A DNA stretch of 64,000 nucleotides. It comes from Clostridiales bacterium DTU069. Lineage in GTDB: Bacteria > Bacillota > Clostridia > DSM-8532. Below the pieces are notes generated by a model, which saw nothing but the letters and a program-made list of their open reading frames with translations, did no database searches and was not told the DNA's origin. Position numbers and translations under genes: made by a program. Positions 1 through 58,110 of the stretch are shown piece by piece; position 1 is the stretch's first letter; every line of letters starts with the position of its first letter. The DNA lies in the NCBI GenBank assembly GCA_001512485.1, contig LFRV01000040.1, positions 1-64,000 on the forward strand, in the 5' to 3' direction.

Positions 1-198
1 CGCGGGTCCTGGTTCGGGTGTTTCGTTTCCTAGGTCGACAAAGCACATACCGGCAACACGCTCCAGATCCTGTTTTATTTTCACATAGAGGTCTCCATAT
101 CCCGGGTTGCTCATTAACCCGCTCCACATTTGCCTGTAAGCAGCAGGGCGTTGAAGAGTGTCGCCCGTCGTCACCGAAAGCACCCGAACCACCCGCTG
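1..198 (+). repeat. Dispersed ~200 bp repeat, copy A (may continue upstream of the window)
   Basis: Nearly colinear and roughly 88% identical by eye to 41848-42046. Left end CGCGGGTCCTGGTTCGGGTG is an inverted match to right end CACCCGAACCACCCGC. Confidence 0.9.
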
Positions 199-270
199 CC
201 TTTTCTGCGTAACTCTTGCAGGTTGCTTAAAAGAACTATTGTACATTAGTTCAGGAAGTGAAATGTTTGC

Positions 271-305
271 ACACTATTTCCGCGGGTCCTGGTCTGGGTA
301 TTTCA
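271..305 (+). repeat. Partial repeat, left-end motif only (ACACTATTTCCGCGGGTCCTGGTCTGGGTATTTCATT)
   Basis: Matches the left end of copies A and B; ends a few nt from the rluA-like stop codon. Confidence 0.8.
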
Positions 306-308
306 TTG

Positions 309-11785: not shown

Positions 11786-11890
11786 TTCAAATTCTCCGGT
11801 TTCAACTTTTTTAGCAGCAATTTTAAAAGTCATACTTTTTTCCCCGTTATTATATAACATAATGGCATTTTTTAAAAGGATAAGGCAAAA

Positions 11891-11990
11891 CACCCGAACC
11901 AGAGCCGCGTACCAACAGGAACGCGGCAGCACTGCCTCGACCCGTTAACCACCCGCTGTCTATATGACACTATTTCCGCGGGTCCTGGTT
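11891..11990 (+). repeat. Rearranged partial repeat, copy C
   Basis: CACCCGAACC ... AACCACCCGCTG ... GACACTATTTCCGCGGGTCCTGGTT, the same end motifs as copies A and B, with an extra ~50 bp hairpin-bearing segment. Confidence 0.8.
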
Positions 11991-12095
11991 CATGCTGTTA
12001 AAAAAATAATATAAAAAAGAACAGACGTTTGCATTAGTTCTTTTTAAATTGTATAATTACTGTATGTTTATTTTCGATATATTACCGGAGGGTTT

Positions 12096-35222: not shown

Positions 35223-35489
35223 GTCGTGCTAGATGGGGAGGTAGCGGTGCCCTGTACCTGCAACCCGCTGTAGCAGGGTCGAATTCCTGCCCGAGGCATA
35301 TTACTGTGGAAAAGGGCTTTGATTTGGGGGCAATGAAGATTGGGTCTTGCGCAATTCAAGGCTGTGAACCCCGTCAGGTTCGGAAGAAAGCAGCGGTAAG
35401 CAGTTTTCTGGATGTGCCGCAAGGGCGCCTGGTCAGAGTTTCCGGTCCTAGTACCGTCCGTAGTCGTATGTCGACGGCAGGTGCACGGC
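35223..35489 (+). ncRNA. ffs: Large (Bacillus-type) signal recognition particle RNA
   Basis: Domain IV GTCAGGTTCGGAAGAAAGCAGC; 5' GTCGTGCTAGATGGGGAGGTAGCGGTGCCCTGTA; closing stem GTCGTGC/GCACGGC; ~267 nt. Confidence 0.96.
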
Positions 35490-41831: not shown

Positions 41832-41847
41832 AACTGTACATTATTTC

Positions 41848-42046
41848 CGCGGGTCCTGCTTCGGGTGTTTCGTTTCCTAGGGCGACAAAGCACGTACCGA
41901 CAACACGCTTCAGATCCTGTTCATTTTTCTGTTGAGAGGTCTCCATATCCCGGGTCGCTCATTTGCCCGCTCCACATTTACCTGTAAGCAGCAGGGCGCT
42001 GGAGCATGTCGCCCATCGTCACCGAAAGCCCCCGAACCACCCGCTG
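41848..42046 (+). repeat. Dispersed ~200 bp repeat, copy B
   Basis: Near-full-length match to 1-198; same inverted ends with two left/right mismatches. Confidence 0.92.
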
Positions 42047-42090
42047 TGTTTGCGGTTTTAGTTCGCCGTATGTTGTTCATATAAAAAATT

Positions 42091-42108
42091 ATTGTACAAT
42101 TGTACAAT
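42091..42108. repeat. 18-bp perfect palindrome ATTGTACAATTGTACAAT between repeat parts
   Basis: Sequence equals its reverse complement; a related half (TATTGTACATTAG) occurs at 237-249. Confidence 0.85.
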
Positions 42109-42128
42109 AGTTTAGTTAGCAGCGTATT

Positions 42129-42195
42129 AACACTATTCCCGCAGGTCCTGCTTCGGGTGGTTCGGTTCCCTGGGCGGCATAGCGCGGGCTTGATG
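42129..42195 (+). repeat. Partial repeat, left-end motif
   Basis: AACACTATTCCCGCAGGTCCTGCTTCGGGTGGTTCGGTTCCCTGGGCGGCA matches the left end of copies A and B. Confidence 0.8.
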
Positions 42196-54637: not shown

Positions 54638-54810
54638 CTCTCATTCTAATTTGGCATATATGAACCCGGCACTGTTTATGCATGGGTACATATTACATAC
54701 AATTGTAATCTTGTTTCCCATCATTTACAAGTGATATTGATTCGTTTTTTTGCTGAAAATGTTGAGAAATAATCGGAACGGTGTTATAATAAATTTACAG
54801 ATTGGTTCAT

Positions 54811-55020
54811 GTTCCTGAAATGTCCGGTTGTACCTATTTATTTTGAACCTACAGTAGACATACGGGAGCCCGACGTTTTTATTTGTAGCACAGGCCTCAA
54901 GATAATACCGACATCGGCGGACAGACCGGTGCAACGGCGGAGGAAGTGCGAAGAATAAATCAGGGCACCCACCTGGCGATTGGCTAGGTGTCAAAATATA
55001 GGGAAACGGCATTTTGGGGC
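54811..55020 (+). ncRNA. ssrS: 6S RNA (SsrS/BsrA-type)
   Basis: Closing stem GTTCCTGAAATGTCC / GGCATTTTGGGGC pairs with small bulges; GTTGTACCTATTT...GAACCTACAGTA...GGGAGCCCGAC and ACAGGCCTCAAG resemble Bacillus 6S RNA; TATAAT at 54784-54790 upstream; no ORF. Confidence 0.8.
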
Positions 55021-55063
55021 ATGAAAAAATGAAAGGGATTGCATAATCTCGTTAATATTTGAC

Positions 55064-57513: not shown

Positions 57514-58017
57514 ATGGATGTTTTTATGGAGAAAATTGTTAAGAAAAAAAAAGACATAAAAGATCACCTTTTAACGGTTGTAATAATTATTGCTGCGTTA
57601 ATTCTTATGTTTTTGGCACTGAATTTTGTTCCGCCGCAGCTTAGCCTGTTTTTTATCGTTGGAATCGGTTATATTTCATATATGCTTATTACAAACAGAA
57701 ACATTGAATATGAATATGCTGTGACAAACGGTGATTTGGATATTGATAAAATTATCGCTCAGCGGAAAAGGAAACGTGTTTTCAGTGAGAACTGCAAGAA
57801 CTTTGATATTGTTGCAAAGGTTAAAAGCCATCATTACACGCCCCAGTACAGAAATTTCAAAAACCAGATGAACTATGCGTCTTCGCTTGACAGTGATGAT
57901 GTATACTTTATTGCTTTGCAGTATAATAACGAGCAGACTATTGTATATTTCGAACCATCGGAGAAAATGCTTCAAAGCTTCAGAACATATATTCCAAGGA
58001 AAGTGTTTATTGATTAG
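57514..58017 (+). CDS. Conserved hypothetical membrane protein (DUF6106-like)
   Basis: Two TM helices then a conserved cytosolic domain; AGGAGG RBS before ATG 57514. Confidence 0.7.
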   Translation: MDVFMEKIVKKKKDIKDHLLTVVIIIAALILMFLALNFVPPQLSLFFIVGIGYISYMLITNRNIEYEYAVTNGDLDIDKIIAQRKRKRVFSENCKNFDIVAKVKSHHYTPQYRNFKNQMNYASSLDSDDVYFIALQYNNEQTIVYFEPSEKMLQSFRTYIPRKVFID

Positions 58018-58110
58018 CCTGTAAGCGGCAGGGACTTGGAGCTGTTTTTGGATTAATCCCCGGCTGATTATTTCCGCGGGGACCGCTTCGGGTATTTCAT
58101 TTCAATAATT
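58018..58110 (+). repeat. Partial dispersed repeat, copy D
   Basis: GCCTGTAAGCGGCAGGG.CTTGGAGC matches the interior of A/B; CCCCGGCTGATTATTTCCGCGGGGACCGCTTCGGGTATTTCATTTC matches the end junction. Confidence 0.8.

Follow-up and report, generated by a model that had tools for sequence, protein, structure and literature searches.

E1, an intergenic palindromic repeat family found in mosaic islands of a group of uncultured Clostridia

Repeat modules in the window and extent of the E1 family

The window examined here (the first 64,000 nt of contig LFRV01000040.1 from Clostridiales bacterium DTU069) carries two large copies of a palindromic repeat, designated E1, together with a series of smaller modules (Table 1). 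Copy A opens at base 1 of the contig (C94) and its 5' end is therefore missing. The original prediction described these copies (nt 1-198 and 41848-42046) as near-identical with inverted ends; they share 89% identity over 199 nt (E ~1e-71) and the inverted ends are present. The partial copies it listed are also genuine, the last of them (nt 58013-58103) being decayed. Overlooked at that stage were the ordered mosaic islands, the repeat E2 described below, and the fact that most of the 'partial copies' are regular arm modules adjoining full copies. Two congeners have a 5' arm at the place orthologous to the one upstream of the gyrB-type gene. The window also includes the genes for large SRP RNA (nt 35224-35488) and 6S RNA (nt 54809-55024), both ordinary.

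Table 1. Repeat modules of the window
Feature	Position (nt)	Strand	Parts and context
E1 copy A	1..202	+	5' arm (cut by contig start), variable region, core GGTCTCCATATCCCGGG, 3' arm
p module	233..252	none	20-bp palindrome GAACTATTGTACATTAGTTC, mini form of E2
Truncated E1 5' arm	271..308	+	closes the island of copy A
Mini 'inside-out' hairpin	11887..11991	+	3' arm with 47-bp insert, spacer TCTATATGACACTATT, 5' arm
E1 copy B	~41839..42050	+	complete; flanked by clpX and gyrB-type gene; begins CATTATT
Degenerate p palindrome(s)	42083..42112	none	around TTGTACAATTGTACAATAG
Truncated E1 5' arm	42131..42186	+	upstream of gyrB-type gene
Decayed remnant of E1 3' half	58013..58041	+	
Decayed E1 5' arm	58066..58103	+	

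The E1 unit is ~212 bp long (CATTATTYCCGCGGG…CACCCGCTG), with boundaries at CATTATTYCC at the start and near CACCCGCTGKKTT at the end. A genome-wide family had been predicted, and the search for further copies in the source genome (a draft of 2.55 Mb in 130 contigs, 91% complete) returned 61 matches at E<=0.01, of which ~37 are close to full length. This abundance is far above chance: the 5'-arm pattern occurs 80 times in the same genome against 0 occurrences of a reversed control. Copies are intergenic, at ~70-100 nt from genes, and the surrounding gene context resembles the background. An early count suggested a bias of E1 orientation relative to genes, which was not significant after de-duplication (19 vs 11, p=0.20).

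The congeners G001 and G002 gave 56 and 47 matches, respectively. In another genus of the same family, genome G019 has 37 matches to its own type of E1, which shares ~70% identity with copy B. A few matches were found in G007. In all, copies at ~70% identity occur in two other genera of the family. The distribution is patchy: E1 is carried by all three genomes of the genus and by one of four in genus g3, with traces elsewhere, while most other family members, including the closed genome G010, gave no match. When 85,462 species genomes were scanned for the pattern, the only hits were MAGs named 'Clostridiaceae bacterium', which from their isolate names we take to be anaerobic-digester Clostridia, and one contig of a Leptolinea MAG (JAAYYW010000428.1). 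The end of this contig is identical over 27 nt to a sequence in G006, and the contig is therefore probably mis-binned. Plasmid and phage records contained no E1 match. Comparison with Rfam, which had been named as a way to overturn the idea of an unrecognised family, matched no entry even at E<=1.

Mosaic islands and turnover between species

E1 copies lie in islands built from a small set of modules: E1 itself, truncated E1 arms, the 20-bp palindrome p, a 47-bp stem insert and E2. The recurring order begins with a 3' part of E1, followed by a spacer, a tail-p-linker or a tail-E2-linker, continues with zero to three full E1 units, and in most islands closes with an E1 5' arm truncated at ~20-70. 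The other palindromic repeat, E2, measures 204 bp, has the ends GAACTATTGTACAATA and is present in ~29 full copies in the source genome (L178-L205; 82-98% identity, nearly all 91-98%). It is nearly always flanked by an E1 3' end on one side and an E1 5' arm on the other, in a single orientation. Genome G004 has dozens of E2 copies and no E1, so elsewhere E2 is independent of E1. The 47-bp insert (GAGCCGCGTACCCACCGGAACGCGGCAGCAATGCCTCGACCCGTTAA) has a small hairpin of its own and was found at L013, L016, L164, L242 and other loci, in either arm of the E1 stem and in reverse-complement form when in the 5' arm. In addition, AAATTCATGGTATAATAACCTCACCCGTTACCGAAATC is a third repeat, scattered in many copies through these genomes, for example downstream of the L024 island and at many places in G002.

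Comparison of orthologous sites shows that E1 has spread and undergone turnover. At the clpX/gyrB site, which holds copy B in the source genome, G001 carries a 3' fragment, a full E1, E2 and a 5' arm, G002 carries a 5' arm beside contig ends, and G019 has only a short E2-like palindrome. Other same-site pairs differ by one extra tandem unit (L027/L068), by E2 in place of E1 (L202/L131), or by E1 against a mini-hairpin with a shared right boundary (L020/L242). An empty orthologous site in a relative had been proposed as a check, and one probable example was found, in G001 (L016/L246); with this single site, and with breakpoints blurred by flanking modules, a target duplication is not definable. 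In a tree of 71 E1 copies the species label changes 12 times, compared with 31.5 when labels are shuffled, and the copies thus cluster mainly by species, although two orthologous pairs cluster by site. The retained pair L027/L068 has diverged about as much as its intergenic flanks and L026/L054 somewhat less than the DNA on either side of it, which suggests turnover, with the source copies under constraint rather than every individual copy.

Terminal stem, coding potential and the structured RNA alternative

Alignment of 102 E1 copies shows that the ends pair into an interrupted stem of ~28 bp in two parts, CGGGT(CCT)GGTTCGGGTGTTTCG with CGAAANCACCCGAACCACCCG and GGGCGACA with TGTCGCCC. Over the whole predicted structure, the alignment has 85 double-change cells where shuffling gives 25.7±3.9, and 16 pairs showing such changes where shuffling gives 9.3±1.9; most lie in the terminal helices. 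The shuffles leave relatedness in, so these counts are to be read as support and not as a probability. The strongest covarying pairs join columns 17/202 (U-A in 57, C-G in 33), 43/176 (G-C in 87, A-U in 11) and 29/190 (C-G in 90, U-A in 8). Covariation, which had been proposed as a check, is thus present in the terminal stem (mainly helices 1, 2 and 4), while the interior helices are mostly devoid of double changes (zero in helices 5-7, a few in helix 8). Two interior hairpins previously singled out fared poorly in the alignment: GGGTT-GCTCATT-AACCC forms a 5-bp hairpin in copy A only, its closing (inner) pair being formed in 6% of copies, and compensatory changes are absent from GGGCG…CGCCC.

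The reverse-strand frame of E1 is mostly open and protein-like by eye. Protein coding was nonetheless rejected, in agreement with the earlier view of a non-coding element, since variation is flat across the three codon positions (0.122-0.145) and stops occur in many copies. Searches against Pfam and PHROGs returned nothing convincing, no Pfam family being matched.

A functional cis-acting structured RNA copied to many genes, as an attenuator or a 3'/5' UTR element, would account for the strong stem with compensatory changes, for the core GGTCTCCATATCCCGGGTCGCTCA, which is kept across genera, and for the intergenic position at ~70-100 nt from genes. Departures from stem pairing are more often A-C (72) than G-T (42), a weak hint that the reverse strand is the folded one. 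Against this, covariation in the interior is scant, orientation relative to genes is not significantly biased, the gene context resembles the background, orthologous sites show replaced content, the closed relative has no E1, Rfam gave no match, and one orthologous pair that was retained has diverged at roughly the rate of the flanking DNA. A structured RNA, one of the options originally offered, is accordingly considered unlikely.

Mode of spread and relationship to known repeats

Taken together, E1 is probably (we estimate roughly 0.6) a non-autonomous MITE/BIME-like palindromic repeat that is spread by a trans-acting enzyme and reshuffled by recombination. The original suggestion of a non-coding MITE- or REP-like intergenic family with inverted ends in Clostridia is supported by the copy number, the copies in relatives, the flat codon-position variation and the covarying ends. 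The terminal stem would be retained because spread requires it, and a trans-acting enzyme probably recognises it, whether in the form of inverted ends or of a single strand folded on itself. An unseen transposase may have copied E1 in bursts, after which modules (E1, arms, 47-bp insert and E2) would have been expanded, truncated and exchanged at intergenic islands of fixed position, presumably when direct or inverted repeats recombined. A host function would not be needed, and incidental effects on neighbouring transcripts may occur.

Transposition by an enzyme is inferred, as a candidate driver was found neither among arm pairs nor in the Y1 family. At none of the loci examined does a 5'-arm/3'-arm pair of E1 enclose a gene, and an autonomous E2 parent recognisable by paired terminal repeats was likewise rejected, no wide pair being seen among the places listed. 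The Y1 (tyrosine) transposase family (PF01797) was discarded as the E1 driver because it was not found in G001 (99% complete) or G002, both of which are rich in E1. The source genome is a 91% complete draft, and a parental IS may therefore be missed. As a counterpoint, the conservation of the core columns (94%) is higher than dead copies should retain, unless the source copies are constrained.

The arms also allow a different choice of basic unit. Inside-out hairpins (3' arm-spacer-5' arm) commonly stand alone, some with E2 and some lacking it, and the unit may be such a hairpin (~80-140 bp). E1 would then consist of two hairpins flanking the 110-bp interior, perhaps arising through joined-end circles that insert where a hairpin already exists, much as cassette arrays are built. 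This would fit the 5' arm that terminates most islands, the mini-hairpin in G001 where the source genome has E1, an apparent mini form in G002 at the E2-bearing L183 site (judged from match coordinates), and a paired double change within one such hairpin (L277). Agreement between arms is, however, weaker across the inside-out spacer (59/80) than within one E1 copy (82/89), some E1 copies have their own termini at host junctions, and a recombinase was not found, so that this scheme appears doubtful. A rather remote prospect is an extension of this scheme to both repeats. The inside-out hairpin, made of the joined ends of one element, would then fold into a site at which a putative recombinase or transposase adds, stacks or exchanges E1 and E2 units, always in fixed orientation, giving gene-less, cassette-like arrays. 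Spread by reverse transcription of a reverse-strand RNA, leaving one intact end and variable truncation, is very improbable: many copies do consist only of a variably truncated 5' arm (the 3' end of the reverse strand), but truncation points cluster near the stem base, copies of only the other half are common too, and no poly-A, target duplication or link to a reverse transcriptase was seen.

In architecture, E1, taken as a MITE/BIME-like element, is closest to the bcr repeats (PMC3446304) and to BIME/REP mosaics (PMC2817692, PMC3116915). The comparison with bcr1-bcr3, intergenic repeats of the Bacillus cereus group that have been called MITE-like (PMC3446304), is by architecture only: both are intergenic, multicopy and non-coding in Firmicutes, whereas E1 forms mosaics of regular order in which a second repeat keeps a fixed orientation, and a target duplication was not seen. 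With the proteobacterial REP/BIME and REPIN elements (PMC2817692, PMC3116915) E1 shares palindromic modules, intergenic mosaics, recurring linkers and, probably, mobilisation in trans. It differs in unit length (~210 bp against 20-40 bp), in its head-to-tail arrays and in that PF01797 does not track it; the GTAG tag of REP/RAYT systems is missing from the E1 consensus ends, and the ~212 bp unit lies outside the 20-40 bp expected of their palindromes. CGTC-tagged REPs, which include dRS3 of Neisseria and have stems of 8-9 bp opening with A-T pairs and loops of 4-5 nt (PMC3733652), were considered because a CGTC motif adjoins the E1 3' arm. They also have no dedicated transposase, and the Neisseria copies lie in mosaic intergenic clusters, but assignment to this class was rejected, as E1 has an interrupted stem of ~28 bp and a 110-bp interior in place of the short stem and loop. 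Like classical MITEs (such as Correia and Nezha), E1 is short, non-coding and intergenic, with terminal inverted repeats and a high copy number, although neither a target duplication nor a parental IS is demonstrable for it here.

E1 had not previously been filed, yet it belongs to an already known sort of genomic repeat and is not a new system. Proteobacteria and bacilli are the groups in which interspersed palindromic repeats are best known, and E1 supplies dozens of structured copies with a covarying stem per genome in an uncultured group of Clostridia. Copies are also found at contig ends, where the assemblies are broken, a warning that MAG contigs of this group end at such repeats. Same-site comparisons across three species allow the growth of islands and the swapping of modules to be read directly.
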